64,000 bases of DNA from Archangium gephyra (GTDB lineage: Bacteria > Myxococcota > Myxococcia > Myxococcales > Myxococcaceae): positions 2,116,501-2,180,500 of the forward strand of contig NZ_CP011509.1 in the NCBI RefSeq assembly GCF_001027285.1, in the 5' to 3' direction. The translations under genes were made by a program, and so were the position numbers. The notes under the pieces were generated by a model. The model ran no database searches. It saw nothing but the letters and a program-made list of their open reading frames with translations, and was not told where the DNA came from. Positions within the stretch are counted from its first letter, which is position 1, and each line of letters begins with the position of its first letter. Shown here piece after piece: positions 860-5,675 of this stretch.

Positions 860-2089
860 TCAGGCCGGGCCGCTGGCGCGAGCCGCGTGCCCTCCCACCA
901 CGTGGTGCTCGCGGATGAAGGCGTCCAGCCGGTCGAAGGCGGTGGAGAGGATGTCCTCCGGCGGGAGGAACACCACCCGGAAGTGGTGCGTGCCGGCCTT
1001 CTGTCCGAAGCCGCTGCCGTGGACGAAGAGCACGCCCGTCTCGCGCAGCAGCGACAGGACGAACTGCTCGTCGTCCGTCACGCCGGGCAGTTGGAGGCGG
1101 ACCATCGCGTAGAAGGCGGCGGCGGGCTCCACCACGGACAGGCCGGGGATGGCGTTGATGCGGCGCACCATCAAGTCGCGCCGCGAGCGCATCCGCTTCA
1201 TCATCTCCGGGATGTGCTCCTGGGGCCCCTCAAGCGCGGGCTGGATGGCGTACTGCTGCGGGGCGGGCGCGCACAGCCGGGCATCCGCCAGCCGCATCAC
1301 CGCGCTCTTGAGCTCCGGCATCAGGTGCGCGTTGCAGAAGACGAGCCACCCCATGCGCCAGCCACAGGCCAGGTATGCCTTGGACAGGCCATTGAAGGTG
1401 ATGATGGGCACGTCCTTCGCCAGCGACGCGGTGGGCGTGTGGTCCTTGTCGTAGAGCAGCTTGTCGTAGATTTCATCGGAGAGGATGACGAGCCCACGCC
1501 GCCGGGCGAGCTCCAGCAGTCCCTCCAGCACCTTGCGGTCGAGCACCGCGCCCGTGGGGTTGTTGGGGTTGCACAGCAGGATCGCGCGGGTGCCGGGAGT
1601 GCACAGCGCGTCGATCTCCTCCAGGTCCAACGTCCAGCCGCGCTCCTCGTCCAAGGTGTAGGGCACGCCCCGGGCGTTCAGCTTGGCCATGAGGGCGTTG
1701 TAGAGCGGGTAGCCGGGGTTGGGCAGCAGGACGCGCTCGCCGGGGTCCAGCAGGGCCGTGAGGGCCAGCTCGAGTGCCTCGCTGGCGCCGCTGGTGACGA
1801 CCACGTCCGAGGGCGTGATGCCGGGGATGCCGGTGCGCGTGCACTCGCGGGCGATGGCCTCGCGCGCGGCCGGGATGCCCGCCGAGGGCGCATAGCCGTT
1901 GTGTCCGTCCCGCATCGCGCGGTGCACCGCCTCGATGAGGTGCGGCGGCGTCTGGAAGTCGAATTTGAGCGGATCCCCGATGTTCAGGAAGAGGATGCGC
2001 CGGCCCTGGGCTTCCAGGCGGCTCGCCTCGGCCACGACGTTGCGGATGGCGTAGCGGACGTTCTCGATGTGCCTGGCGGCGCGAATCAC
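860..2089 (-). CDS. Pyridoxal-phosphate aminotransferase, AlaA-like (alanine-synthesising)
   Basis: A 409-residue fold-type I class I/II aminotransferase, close in length and motif order to E. coli AlaA, which makes alanine from pyruvate and glutamate. Landmarks: LNIGDP (35-40), GYPLYNALM (126-134), NPNNPTG (174-180), SDEIYDKLLY (204-213), and NGLSKAY with Schiff-base lysine K237. The reading frame is open up to 2182, but the sequence before 2089 is Arg-rich and unlike the family. GTG at 2087-2089 has GAGGA just upstream and begins IRAARHIENVRY, matching the usual N-terminus. The intergenic region behind it carries palindromes that may regulate this gene or the opposite-strand small RNA. Substrate specificity is inferred from resemblance only. 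Confidence 0.88.
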   Translation of the reverse strand: MIRAARHIENVRYAIRNVVAEASRLEAQGRRILFLNIGDPLKFDFQTPPHLIEAVHRAMRDGHNGYAPSAGIPAAREAIARECTRTGIPGITPSDVVVTSGASEALELALTALLDPGERVLLPNPGYPLYNALMAKLNARGVPYTLDEERGWTLDLEEIDALCTPGTRAILLCNPNNPTGAVLDRKVLEGLLELARRRGLVILSDEIYDKLLYDKDHTPTASLAKDVPIITFNGLSKAYLACGWRMGWLVFCNAHLMPELKSAVMRLADARLCAPAPQQYAIQPALEGPQEHIPEMMKRMRSRRDLMVRRINAIPGLSVVEPAAAFYAMVRLQLPGVTDDEQFVLSLLRETGVLFVHGSGFGQKAGTHHFRVVFLPPEDILSTAFDRLDAFIREHHVVGGHAARASGPA

Positions 2090-2193
2090 GGGAATCCTCG
2101 GCAAGGGTCGCTGTCTATGTAACAACGGCCTCCGCCTCGGGGTGCGGGACGTTCTCCTCCGGGTGCGGCGGAGGACACCCAATGGGGAAGGCG

Positions 2194-2229
2194 TCCTGAT
2201 TCAGGACAGAAGTGTCCGATTCCGGGACA
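2194..2229. promoter_or_regulatory. Tandem overlapping palindromes, candidate enhancer/operator
   Basis: Three inverted repeats overlap: TCCTGA-T-TCAGGA (2194-2206), GGACA-GAAG-TGTCC (2204-2217) and TGTCC-7 nt-GGACA (2213-2229), all perfect in the arms. They lie about 175-210 bases upstream of the predicted sigma-54 transcription start at 2402, which is where enhancer-binding proteins usually bind. They also lie 105-140 bases upstream of the aminotransferase on the other strand. The protein that binds is unknown. Confidence 0.5.
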
Positions 2230-2375
2230 GCTTCGGATTGCGCGTCCAACCCCTTGAGTTCCCGATGATTTCGGGTGGTTTTGTCACGACGCGTTACATT
2301 CGAGCGGAGGGGGAGTGGAGCCCTGACGCACCGGGTCAGTTTTGGACTCCCAAGCAATATCGAGCGCTTGGCCGC

Positions 2376-2391
2376 TGGCACGCTGGGTGCT
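2376..2391 (+). promoter_or_regulatory. Sigma-54 (-24/-12) promoter
   Basis: TGGCACGCTGGGTGCT matches the consensus TGGCAC-R-N4-TTGCW at every defined position except one (G for T). The invariant GG (2377-2378) and GC (2389-2390) are separated by exactly ten bases. The start would be near 2402. No protein gene follows on this strand; an intrinsic terminator is reached about 90-100 bases later. Confidence 0.6.
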
Positions 2392-2401
2392 TTAGAGAGG
2401 C

Positions 2402-2500
2402 CTACACCGAGACACGGGCCGTCAACCTCCTCCTCTGACGTCCCGCTGTGGTGAGCGGCGGATGAGCCTCCCCAGAAGGCTCGCCCGCCGCTGTTTTTTT
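2402..2500 (+). ncRNA. Candidate sigma-54-dependent small RNA (~99 nt)
   Basis: The stretch runs from the predicted +1 of a good -24/-12 promoter to the last T of a strong intrinsic terminator and holds no plausible ORF with a ribosome binding site. The terminator's U-tract points to plus-strand transcription, but no plus-strand protein gene lies upstream, which is the main argument for an RNA gene. The layout (sigma-54 promoter, about 100 nt, C-rich terminator loop) recalls Pxr, the developmental sRNA of Myxococcus xanthus. I cannot compare sequences here, so homology is not claimed. An alternative is the tail of a short unrecognised peptide transcript. Confidence 0.5.
2454..2500 (+). terminator. 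Strong intrinsic terminator
   Basis: An 8-bp stem AGCGGCGG/CCGCCGCT (2454-2461 with 2485-2492), a 2x2 internal loop, a 6-bp stem GAGCCT/AGGCTC (2464-2469 with 2477-2482), a 7-nt C-rich loop, then G and seven Ts (2494-2500). The U-tract is on the plus strand only. The same hairpin lies five bases past the RND pump stop codon on the minus strand but has no U-tract in that direction. Confidence 0.8.
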
Positions 2501-2504
2501 GCGC

Positions 2505-5500
2505 TCAGGCCGGACGCGGCGTCTGTCCGCCATCGCCCGATGTTGGAGGCGGGGTGCCGTGCTCATGGCGCTTGAGCAGCTTCGTCCGGGCCGTCTCCAC
2601 CAGCGTGTACAGCACGGGGATGAAGATGAGGTTGACGAAGGTGGACAGCAGCATGCCGCCGAACACCGCCGTGCCCAGCGACTTGCGCGAGGCGGCGCCC
2701 GCGCCCGTGGCCAGCACCAGCGGCACCACGCCCAACAGGAAGGCGAAGGACGTCATGATGATGGGCCGCAGCCGCGTGTCCGCCGCCTGGATGGCCGCCT
2801 CCACCGCGCTCTTGCCCTGATGGCGCAGCTGCTCGGCGAACTCCACGATGAGCACCGCGTTCTTGCTGGACAGGCCCACCAGCATCAGCAGACCGACCTG
2901 GCAGAAGACGTCGTTGGCGAGCCCTCGCAGCAGCTGGAAGCCGAGCGCGCCGAGGATGGCCACCGGCACCGCCAGCATGATGACGAAGGGCAGGGCGAAG
3001 CTCTCGTACTGCGCCGACAGCACCAGGAAGACGAAGACGACGCCCAGGGCGAAGATGAGCAGCACCTTGCCCGCGGACTGCTTCTGCTCGAGCGACAAAC
3101 CCGTCCACTCGAAGGTGAAGCCGGCCGGGAGACCCTGGCGGGCCACGGCCTCCATGGCGTCCAGCGCCTGACCGGTGCTGACGCCGGGGGCGCCCTGGCC
3201 GTTGATGGTGGCCGAGCGGAACAGGTTGTAGTGGGTGATGTTCTGCGCGGTGGTGACGGGCTCCACCTTCACCAGGCTCTCCAGCGGCACCATCTGTCCC
3301 TGCGTCGAGCGCACGTAGAAGGCGGAGATGTCCTTGGGCTCGTTGCGGAAGGGCATGGCCGCCTGCACGTAGACGCGGTAGACGCGGTTGGCGAAGGTGA
3401 AGTCATTCACGTAGCTGCTGCCCATGTAGACCTGCAGCGTGGAGTAGAGCGCGTCCAGCGACACGCCGAGCGACTTGGCCTTCTCCCGGTCCACCGACAC
3501 GTTGAGCAGCGGGGTGCTCGCCGTGTAGGACGAGAAGACGCTGCGCAGGTCCGGTGACTGGTTGGCCCGTCCCGAGAGCTGCTGGGTGGCCGCCGCCAGC
3601 TCGTCCAGCGTGTGGTTGCCCTGCTGATCCTCCAGGACGAACTCGAAGCCACCCACGCTGCCCACGCCGCGGATGGTGGGTGGCTGGAAGACCAGCACCC
3701 GCGCTCCGGGAATGCCAGCCAGCGGCCCGCGCAGCCGGTTGACCAGCCCGGCCACGCTCTGCTCCTTCTCCTCGCGCTCCTCCCACGGGTGGAGGTTGAT
3801 GAAGAGGACGCCGTAGTTGGGGCCGGTGCCCAGCAGCGAGAAGCCGCCCACGGTGAAGATGTCCGCCACCTCCTTCTGCCGGCGCAGCACCTCTTCCGTC
3901 TGCAGCAGCACCTGCCGTGTGTAGTCCAGCGACGTGCCCTCGGGGCCCTGGATGGCGACGATGATGTAGCCCTGGTCCTCCTCGGGAATGAAGCCGGTGG
4001 GGGTGACGCGGTAGAGCAGCGCCGTGAGGCCCAGGAGCACCACGAAGGCGCCCAGCACCACCCAGCGCGGGCCGGGCAGCAGCAGCTTGCCCAGGAAGCG
4101 CGCGTAGCCTCGCCGGAAGGCATCCATCGTCTGGTCCACCCAGCGGAAGAAGCGCCACTTCTGTCCCTCGTGCGCGCGCAGCAGCCGGGCGCACAGCGCG
4201 GGGGACAGCGTGAGGGCCACCAGGGCCGACAGGCTGATGGAGAAGGCCAGCGTGAGCGCGAACTGCCGGTAGATGGTGCCCGTGGTGCCCGGGAAGAAGG
4301 ACACCGGGACGAACACCGCCGAGAGCACCAGCGCCGTGGCGATCACCGCGCCGCCCACCTGCTTCATGCTCCGGTGCGACGCCTCGCGCGCGTCCACGTT
4401 CTCCTCCACCATGACGCGCTCGACGTTCTCGATGACCACGATGGCGTCATCCACCACCAGGCCCGTGGCCAGTGTCAGGCCGAAGAGCGTCAGCGTGTTG
4501 AGCGAGAAGCCGAACGCGCTCACGAAGGCGAAGGTGCCCACCAGCGACACCGGCAGCGTCGTGGCCACCACGAGGATGCTGCGCCAGCCGTGCAGGAAGA
4601 TGAAGATGACGAGGATGACGAGCGCGATGGCCTCCACCAGCGTGACCAGCACCTCCTCGATGGAGGCCTGCACCGCCGCCGTGGTGTCGAAGGCCCGCTC
4701 GTAGACCATGCCCGGCGGGAAGTTGCCCTTGAGCCGCTCCAGCTCGGCCACCACGCCCTCGCGCACCTCCAGCGCGTTGGAGCCGGGGAGCTGGAAGATG
4801 CCCAGGCCCACCGCGTCCCGGCCGTTGAAGCGCAAGAGCTGGTTGTAGTTCTCCGCTCCCAGCTCCACCCGGCCCACGTCCTTCATCTGCACCAGCGTGC
4901 CGTCCTCGCCACGCTGCAGGACGATGTCGCCGAACTGCTCCGGCGTGGACAGCTGGCCGAGCACCTGCACGTTGATCTGATACGTCTGCCCCTGCGGAGA
5001 AGGAGGCTGGCCCACCTGTCCCGCGGCCACCTGCACGTTCTGCTCGCGCAGCGCGCCCACCACGTCCTGCGCGGTGAGGCCCCGGCTCGCCAGCTTCGTG
5101 GGGTCCAACCACAACCGCATGGCGAAGCGGCGCTCGCCGAAGATGCGTACGTCGCCCACGCCCTTCACCCGCAGCAGCGCGTCGCGGATGTAGACGTCCG
5201 CGTAGTTGCTGAGGAAGCCCGTGTCGTAGCGCCCCGCCTCGTCATACAGGCCGAAGGACATGAGCAGCTGCGATTGCGTCTTGTTGATGGTGATGCCCAG
5301 CGCGTTCACCTCGGCGGGCAGCCGCGCCGAGGCGGTGGCCACCCGGTTCTGCACGTCCACCGCCGCGACGTCCAGGTCACGGTCCGGCTCGAAGGTGACG
5401 GTGATGGTGCTGGTGCCGTTGTTGCTGCTGTTGGAGGAGATGTAGCGCATGCCCTCCAGGCCGTTGAGCTGGCGCTCCAGCACCGTCGTCACGGCGCTCT

Positions 5501-5675
5501 CCACCACCTCGGCGGAGGCACCGATGTACGTGGACGTCACGGTCACCTGCGGTGCCGCGAGCTCCGGGTACTGCTCGATGGGCAGGCTGGGGATGGAGAT
5601 GGCGCCCACCAGCGTGATGAGGATGGAGATGACGCTGGCGAAGATGGGCCGGCGGATGAAGAAGTCGGAGAACAT
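2505..5675 (-). CDS. RND efflux pump inner-membrane transporter, HAE1 family (AcrB/MexB-like)
   Basis: A 1056-residue proton-driven multidrug exporter and the inner-membrane engine of a tripartite pump. It starts MFSDFFIRRPIFA, as in AcrB-type proteins, and has the expected layout: one TM helix, a large periplasmic loop, TM2-6, a second TM helix, a second loop and TM8-12. The proton-relay pair is D409-D410 in GLVVDDAIVVIENV. FFPGTTGTIYRQFALT (about 465-480) is also typical. It is the last gene of a minus-strand operon and follows the adaptor gene by six bases, so expression is coupled. Its length equals the family norm and nothing looks broken. Substrates cannot be read from sequence; drugs, detergents or secondary metabolites are usual. 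Confidence 0.95.
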   Translation of the reverse strand: MFSDFFIRRPIFASVISILITLVGAISIPSLPIEQYPELAAPQVTVTSTYIGASAEVVESAVTTVLERQLNGLEGMRYISSNSSNNGTSTITVTFEPDRDLDVAAVDVQNRVATASARLPAEVNALGITINKTQSQLLMSFGLYDEAGRYDTGFLSNYADVYIRDALLRVKGVGDVRIFGERRFAMRLWLDPTKLASRGLTAQDVVGALREQNVQVAAGQVGQPPSPQGQTYQINVQVLGQLSTPEQFGDIVLQRGEDGTLVQMKDVGRVELGAENYNQLLRFNGRDAVGLGIFQLPGSNALEVREGVVAELERLKGNFPPGMVYERAFDTTAAVQASIEEVLVTLVEAIALVILVIFIFLHGWRSILVVATTLPVSLVGTFAFVSAFGFSLNTLTLFGLTLATGLVVDDAIVVIENVERVMVEENVDAREASHRSMKQVGGAVIATALVLSAVFVPVSFFPGTTGTIYRQFALTLAFSISLSALVALTLSPALCARLLRAHEGQKWRFFRWVDQTMDAFRRGYARFLGKLLLPGPRWVVLGAFVVLLGLTALLYRVTPTGFIPEEDQGYIIVAIQGPEGTSLDYTRQVLLQTEEVLRRQKEVADIFTVGGFSLLGTGPNYGVLFINLHPWEEREEKEQSVAGLVNRLRGPLAGIPGARVLVFQPPTIRGVGSVGGFEFVLEDQQGNHTLDELAAATQQLSGRANQSPDLRSVFSSYTASTPLLNVSVDREKAKSLGVSLDALYSTLQVYMGSSYVNDFTFANRVYRVYVQAAMPFRNEPKDISAFYVRSTQGQMVPLESLVKVEPVTTAQNITHYNLFRSATINGQGAPGVSTGQALDAMEAVARQGLPAGFTFEWTGLSLEQKQSAGKVLLIFALGVVFVFLVLSAQYESFALPFVIMLAVPVAILGALGFQLLRGLANDVFCQVGLLMLVGLSSKNAVLIVEFAEQLRHQGKSAVEAAIQAADTRLRPIIMTSFAFLLGVVPLVLATGAGAASRKSLGTAVFGGMLLSTFVNLIFIPVLYTLVETARTKLLKRHEHGTPPPTSGDGGQTPRPA

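Follow-up and report, generated by a model that had tools for sequence, protein, structure and literature searches.

Positions 2376-2500 of the window (the whole stretch of 64,000 nt analysed here, part of the 12.49-Mb single-contig genome of the predatory soil bacterium Archangium gephyra) very likely represent a predicted gene for a sigma-54-controlled small RNA (sRNA), located at 2,119 kb of the contig. Our comparisons favoured a real sRNA gene, confined to Archangium among the genomes searched and belonging, as a non-coding member, to a sigma-54 regulon of secreted proteases, lipase-like enzymes and other exported proteins; this reading is given a probability of roughly 0.77. The locus comprises the following features:

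860-2089, minus strand: aminotransferase gene, divergent neighbour (open reading frame; an orthologue adjoins the locus in all six species)
2192-2208, plus strand: enhancer box A, distal copy, CGTCCTGATTCAGGACA (among the 41 A-like sites of the genome; at 182-184 bp in 6/6 species)
2213-2229, plus strand: enhancer box A, proximal copy, TGTCCGATTCCGGGACA (163 bp upstream of the promoter TGG; at 161-163 in 6/6 species)
2248-2265, plus strand: weak fourth element, AAgtCCnTGnttTC-like (third EM motif)
2282-2298, plus strand: enhancer box B, TGTCACGACGCGTTACA (weight matrix from exoenzyme promoters only; 6/6 species)
2316-2333, plus strand: enhancer box C, TGGAGCCCTGACGCACCG, consensus TGGAGCATCgATGCTCCA (60 bp ahead of TGG; p from 4e-6 to 1e-4 depending on the species)
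2376-2391, plus strand: sigma-54 promoter, -24/-12 elements TGGCACG-CTGG-GTGCT, TGGCACGCTGGGTGCT (one mismatch to consensus; 6/6 congeners)
2402-2500, plus strand: predicted sRNA of about 99 nt (covariance model R1 matches 6/6 congeners, four of them its source; fold z-score -4.84)
2405-2453, plus strand: stem-loop 1 (from the fold; two-sided changes at two pairs)
2425-2435, plus strand: apical loop of stem-loop 1, ACCUCCUCCUC, anti-Shine-Dalgarno-like (from the fold)
2454-2500, plus strand: stem-loop 2 and 7-T tract, an intrinsic terminator of plus-strand polarity (15-pair stem; two-sided changes at two pairs)
2505-5675, minus strand: RND efflux pump gene, convergent neighbour (open reading frame; stop codon 5 bp beyond the T tract)

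The architecture reported in a preliminary description of this DNA was recovered. The promoter GG (2377-2378) and GC (2389-2390) are exactly ten bases apart and a sole mismatch was counted against TGGCACG-N4-TTGCW, the -12 element reading GTGC instead of TTGC. The RNA start (+1 near 2402), deduced from the -12 element, is uncertain by a few nucleotides; 52 bases beyond it, at 2454, begins the GC-rich terminator stem, followed on the same strand by seven T (2494-2500). The promoter string alone carries little weight since five one-mismatch matches were found in the window versus 5.4 expected, and the hairpin at 2454-2500 was not among the results of a simple terminator scan of the window. As mere strings, promoter and terminator are unremarkable in GC-rich DNA, but the whole arrangement is beyond chance: positions 2402-2500 folded into two hairpins (-47.9 kcal/mol, z-score -4.84) with a stability equalled by none of 200 shuffles, and promoter, hairpins and T tract recurred in six of six congeners. 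No Rfam family matched at its gathering score anywhere in the window. The best weak match was ncS035 (22.7 bits against a cut-off of 79); membership of ncS035 and of CcsR1 was rejected on such weak scores, as was that of alpha-r14 (RF02344, 21 bits against 58.8).

Conservation was examined among 96 genomes of the family. Promoter, both hairpins and T tract recurred beside an orthologous aminotransferase gene in all six Archangium genomes, that of the window included; a 191-bp BLAST query found the locus in five of the 96 genomes and the sixth Archangium locus was reached via the aminotransferase orthologue. Covariance model R1, built from four species, matched all six congeners and gave weak matches in two of the 90 other genomes (G077, 32 bits; G022, 28.8 bits). 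Both belong to other genera and were taken as chance because their loci lack the TGGCAYG-N4-GTGCT-N2-AG motif, so that this R1 search disclosed no convincing copy among the 90; weak relatives could be missed by it, since stricter filters were used and 39 candidates were scored per genome. The combination of promoter and leader was also sought in 84,980 species, a set from which the records closest to the window's genome may be absent; 31 loci were returned, and R1 found the RNA in two of them, both from Archangium. Conservation of promoter and hairpin in relatives, on which the preliminary description had made its proposal depend, was thus encountered throughout the genus and not found outside it.

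Nearly the entire RNA is common to four long-form species, whose C-rich loop is the same save for a 2-nt deletion in A. gephyra (CUCCUCCUCCUCU in three congeners). The two others, G003 and G006, display a shortened first hairpin, UGGCCGU-CUCCUC-ACGGCCA, where CUCCUC takes the place of the loop, with promoter and terminator as in the rest. In every one of the six species the terminator hairpin is followed on the sRNA strand by six or more T, and in the A. gephyra genome no T run follows it on the other strand. In a six-row alignment, which was fitted to the structure and hence favours pairing statistics, 93.9% of the cells paired, and sliding the partner by 1-3 columns destroyed the pairing. 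Two-sided changes were observed at four pairs, in seven cells (seven cells were reached by 0/500 shuffles, four pairs by 23/500), whereas further pair types were no better than in shuffles (329/500).

Short frames inside the RNA were also considered, and none was kept across all six species, in line with the earlier observation that no open reading frame with a ribosome-binding site lies there. A small peptide gene in place of an sRNA would have to use the frame opening at 2462 (ATG in A. gephyra and G004, GTG in G002), but this frame begins within the terminator stem and meets no stop before the T tract, no ribosome-binding site stands at a proper distance from it, and G005, G003 and G006 lack it. 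On these grounds the peptide reading was rejected, and its probability is practically nil.

The surroundings of the sRNA are less constant than the sRNA itself. In A. gephyra, both neighbours lie on the minus strand, which agrees with the previous statement that no plus-strand gene reads into the locus and rules out an mRNA leader in A. gephyra; G005 does have a plus-strand frame after the sRNA. The RND orthologue (88-96% identical) adjoins the locus in four of the five other congeners. In G005, the convergent RND gene is replaced by a plus-strand membrane-fusion-protein-like frame (L044 3134-4224), opening about 100 bp past the sRNA T tract, and by a distant RND-type start (35% identity). The aminotransferase gene being kept in 6/6 species but the convergent RND gene in 5/6, the sRNA and not this neighbour is the constant of the locus. 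Action in cis on efflux genes, either by interference or a shared terminator with the convergent RND operon or, in G005, as the terminated leader of a plus-strand efflux-type operon, would account for the RND stop codon lying 5 bp from the end of the T tract in A. gephyra and for the closeness of the G005 frame. Yet the neighbour varies and the sRNA does not, stem-loop 1 would be superfluous and, among 28 loci of the genus sharing the control region (see below), an efflux gene adjoins the sRNA loci alone in the stretches read. Cis action was already improbable and was marked down further because of the different neighbour in G005; we consider it quite unlikely. As a separate observation, in G006 (L043) an extra plus-strand lipoprotein-like open reading frame, absent from the window, separates the aminotransferase gene from the sRNA enhancer, and G003 (L042/L005) contains similar sequence.

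In G034, a relative from another genus, the same RND gene ends at a GC-rich hairpin with neither sRNA nor plus-strand T tract, which suggests that the predicted sRNA terminator may have grown out of a hairpin of the neighbouring gene. Part of the terminator may accordingly pre-date the sRNA, as would be expected if the locus were a remnant of an exoenzyme gene that was lost, its promoter and enhancer now standing before a hairpin and yielding a short functionless transcript; the exoenzyme-type control region described below would fit such a history as well. However, compensatory changes keep both hairpins over six species, stem-loop 1 would have no cause to persist, and neither the near-identity of the C-rich loop in the long-form species nor the T run on the sRNA strand in six of six would be expected of a relic, which makes this origin unlikely.

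Other sigma-54 promoters of the genus have upstream elements in common with the sRNA promoter. These elements (boxes A, B and C) are all palindromic. Box A, of the form TGTCC-N7-GGACA, is present twice at the sRNA: the distal copy lies 184 bp upstream of the promoter start, at a distance of two helical turns (21 bp) from the proximal one, a 17-mer identical to one upstream of an M35-protease promoter at 8016 kb. The proximal copy has one arm mismatch in three of the six species, and one of the two copies carries one arm mismatch in 4/6. A TGTCC-N7-GGACA search of the own genome returned 56 sites, against 11 in the reversed control; 32 or more of the 56 display a commoner palindrome, TGTCCAACTGTTGGACA (e.g. 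131622, 154551, 186918, 353113/353180 and 456746/457747; loci L156-L170), which was set aside as a motif distinct from box A. With the ATTC-centred A form and up to two mismatches, 44 matches were obtained (reversed control 22) and 41 distinct sites were examined. Ten of these, before eight promoters, were followed 162-194 bp downstream by a strong sigma-54 promoter (custom-made score, threshold 7, 260 bp), and none of the 41 had one on the other side. All but one of the ten distances (162, 163, 173, 173, 173, 174, 184, 193 and 194) fall on helical turns, the exception being the A distance of the 732-kb promoter (178).

Genes for exported proteins lie downstream of seven of these promoters, the eighth being that of the sRNA. 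Pfam assigned trypsin-like, M35, M57 and lipase-like (palmitoyl-thioesterase/PGAP1-type) hydrolase domains among the seven. Two others displayed a thermolysin propeptide (fragments), with an M4 domain below the cut-off or beyond the stretch; this domain passes in homologues L238, L273, L275 and L082. The seventh, at 732 kb, is exported, resembles a beta-propeller protein with a score below the Pfam cut-off, and was counted as exoenzyme-type. A ninth promoter, at 1753 kb and with degenerate A boxes, precedes an M10-like protease. Elsewhere, near-identical sigma-54 promoters 1.6 kb apart (G000:C1:4876714 and 4878338, L176) were noted before lipoproteins of one family, with a different upstream region containing a GCGACATTCGCCGATGGC stretch.

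An A box followed after 143-173 bases by GGC-N8-TGCT, taken as one combined pattern, matched 64 times in 33 of the 96 genomes, against five times in the reversed control. The six Archangium genomes contributed 30 matches, representing 28 loci (reversed control 0), and a version with one extra base in the promoter matched 0 times there and 15 times elsewhere. The 28 loci correspond to six sRNA loci (one per species, 6/6), 20 exoenzyme-type genes and two others (L240 and L268); L267, without Pfam match at 1e-5, is by eye a close homologue of the lipase-like L236/L239. Outside the genus, 34 matches were recorded. Among the 28 of these loci that were read, 20 by eye precede exoenzyme-type genes, five of which were Pfam-checked (two M10-like, one M57, one subtilase and one lipase-like hydrolase), and eight do not; most of the eight belong to genus g5 and display the TGTCCGACWGTCGGACA repeat. 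Palindromic TGTCCGACWGTCGGACAGGTT repeats were also frequent among the pattern matches of genus g5 (e.g. L243 and L248). As judged from these searches, the putative enhancer code is wider than Archangium and the predicted sRNA is found in Archangium alone.

Motifs B and C were learned from 23 Archangium exoenzyme-type promoters, which include orthologues and hence are not independent, the sRNA being left out. Motif C, TGGAGCATCgATGCTCCA, occurs 68-72 bp before TGG in 22/23 of them and motif B, TGTCAnGnnCnCTTTACA, 105-109 bp before it in 17/23 and at 95-96 in two. The array is not uniform across the regulon, since B was not found in four lipase-like promoters. At the sRNA, the best C (59-60) and the best B (95-97) lie one helical turn (10-11 bp) nearer the promoter in all six species, and the A boxes flank the usual 173 position by one turn on either side. 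The same arrangement is encountered before an exoenzyme gene, L272, with A, B and C at 161, 95 and 59. The weak fourth element lies 126-128 bp from the sRNA promoter in 5/6 species, versus about 136-139 in several exoenzyme promoters.

Weight matrices were made from the best B sites of 16/23 promoters and the best C sites of 22/23, the rest being excluded by hand (for B, these were L173, L274 and L110, of poorer fit, and the four lipase-like promoters, where B is lacking). The background consisted of 31 non-regulon loci and positions 6001-64000 of the window; an earlier one, used in motif learning, still held regulon loci. The B score of the sRNA (20-26 bits) was reached by none of 255,894 background positions, whichever of the six species was considered, and C reached p 4e-6 in three species and a weak value of about 1e-4 in the other three, A. 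gephyra included. Four further sigma-54 promoters were examined and none contained the B+C pair: a weak B-like site without C was observed at one pxr copy (11.0 bits, -165) and at the promoter of an FHA gene (8.2 bits, -106), and neither box at a second pxr copy and a GON-domain promoter. In two congeners (L097/L100), a sigma-54 promoter was observed before an FHA-domain-like gene, and a stretch resembling an enhancer-binding protein lies close by (35% to PxrR in tblastn); the weak B-like site at -106 is that of L097.

From this control region, the sRNA very probably belongs, as its non-coding member, to the sigma-54 exoenzyme (feeding) regulon instead of being a developmental RNA. The preliminary description had proposed a perhaps developmental role by likening the locus to Pxr, an sRNA of M. 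xanthus; the sigma-54-controlled sRNA itself is well supported by the comparisons, but the developmental role is unsupported since the control region belongs to a secreted-enzyme regulon. Pxr blocks development in rich medium and has a sigma-54 promoter, about 100 nt and three stem-loops with a C-rich first loop; pxr is located downstream of pxrR (nla19) in M. xanthus, and some published Cystobacter paralogues likewise have two stem-loops (PMC5568312, PMC5684412). The likeness holds as an analogy: both are myxobacterial, with a sigma-54 promoter (here recognised by its letters), about 100 nt, a C-rich first loop and a strong, GC-rich 3' terminator. It does not extend to homology. The Archangium sRNA has two stem-loops instead of three and another sequence, it is not downstream of pxrR, the B+C pair is missing at the two pxr promoters tested, and it was encountered in Archangium alone, where pxr itself is present separately. 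A partial pxr DNA query, built from the Pxr primer letters in PMC5568312, landed at four other places of the genome and not at 2402-2500. These are four tandem pxr copies at 2,696-2,697 kb, 0.58 Mb from the sRNA and, as in M. xanthus, downstream of an NtrC-like response-regulator gene. In this array (L036 2375-3450), copies are about 300 bp apart and three have a TGGCACG-N4-GTGCT promoter; a similar four-copy array was observed in G006 (L038).

A covariance model of Pxr (R2, from 11 copies) recovered, at 110-131 bits, each of the eight Pxr copies carried by two genomes. The comparison of 2402-2500 with Pxr that the preliminary description had suggested gave no R2 match at E up to 10. A diverged Pxr paralogue acting as a developmental gatekeeper might explain the similar plan and the weak cross-matches, R2 scoring 14-19 bits on the orthologues in G002, G003 and G006, and R1 scoring 16-17 bits on two Pxr copies of A. 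gephyra and one of G006. But antisense Pxr strands score higher with R2 (up to 26 bits) than every sRNA orthologue, the R1 alignment is carried by the terminator and a short leader, and pxr occupies another locus with a different control region. Membership of Pxr was rejected on the missing R2 match and the landing sites of the DNA query, and descent from it seems very improbable.

The steps supported by sequence are the array of boxes A, B and C, the -24/-12 promoter and the predicted two-hairpin, terminator-ended RNA. Sigma-54 polymerase requires an enhancer-binding protein; since the boxes are common to the regulon, we infer a common activator. This putative protein would bind boxes A-C when macromolecular food is present, feeding being proposed as the signal because of the enzyme types, and sigma-54 polymerase would then make the sRNA together with the exoenzyme mRNAs. 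The sRNA is thus probably produced along with the feeding enzymes. Searching with PxrR by tblastn gave no enhancer-binding-protein gene in the 1.8-3.2 kb around the regulon loci, nor in the window. The half-site of Nla28, CT(C/G)CG(C/G)AG (PMC9765219), differs from boxes A-C.

Once made, the exposed CCUCCUCCUC loop may pair with purine-rich ribosome-binding sites of other mRNAs and would lower their translation while cells feed. Such anti-Shine-Dalgarno action in trans is plausible by analogy, the loop being the complement of GAGGAGGAGG-type ribosome-binding sites. GAGGAGGAGG-N3-9-ATG sites numbered 23 in A. gephyra (reversed control 5) and 34 versus 18 in G003, showing in neither genome an enrichment beyond what ribosome-binding sites predict; as these sites give GAGGAGGAGG before ATG anyway, the count is uninformative on targets. 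By eye, some of 14 inspected among the 23 resemble gene starts, e.g. those of a ribonucleotide-reductase-like and a Wzz-like protein, and others lie inside reading frames or open very short ones.

How myxobacteria turn on secreted digestive enzymes and set feeding against development is poorly known. The enhancer code (A, B and C in fixed phase with a sigma-54 promoter), common to protease and other exported-enzyme genes and with matches beyond the genus, offers a handle for isolating the activator, and the candidate RNA regulator would be produced simultaneously with them. A recent sRNA gene birth is possible, since the code is wider than the genus and the sRNA was found in the genus alone. 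It is conceivable, if rather doubtful in its entirety, that the gene owes its origin to the placing of an exoenzyme-type sigma-54 enhancer-promoter ahead of a terminator hairpin, and that its anti-Shine-Dalgarno loop switches off competing programmes (e.g. surface polysaccharide synthesis or development) during hydrolase production. If true, an RNA arm would be built into the Archangium feeding programme.

Several known systems resemble parts of this scheme. M. xanthus on prey increases 20 peptidases and three lipases, the same broad enzyme classes as the Archangium regulon, and its sRNAs change too, but these were left out of the authors' manual analysis, and the available part of the report names no regulator, enhancer or sRNA (PMC9548883). 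A CCUCCUCC-type sequence exposed in a hairpin loop is shared with the alpha-proteobacterial alpha-r14 sRNA NfeR1 and, from its weak Rfam match, with CcsR1-type RNAs. NfeR1 silences ntrB via CCUCCUCCC loops; alpha-r14 RNAs consist of three hairpins, each with CCUCCUCCC, and the NfeR1 promoter has no sigma-54 signature (PMC10746234). The Archangium sRNA, by contrast, has one C-rich apical loop. A search of the open-access literature by title and abstract yielded no paper on sigma-54 control of myxobacterial secreted proteases, nor any on the Archangium sRNA.

As a kind, sigma-54-driven sRNAs are known; in the open-access literature covered, neither this sRNA family nor its regulon or enhancer code was encountered. 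Qrr, CrcZ and NrsZ are sigma-54-dependent sRNAs of other bacteria and act under an enhancer-binding protein. We know of no sequence relation between these RNAs, or GlmY, and the one described here. GlmY, dependent on sigma-54 under QseF/GlrR, likewise combines sigma-54 polymerase with an enhancer-binding protein (PMC7073468). What sets the Archangium sRNA apart from GlmY, Qrr, CrcZ and NrsZ is that its predicted enhancer array also serves a set of secreted-enzyme genes.
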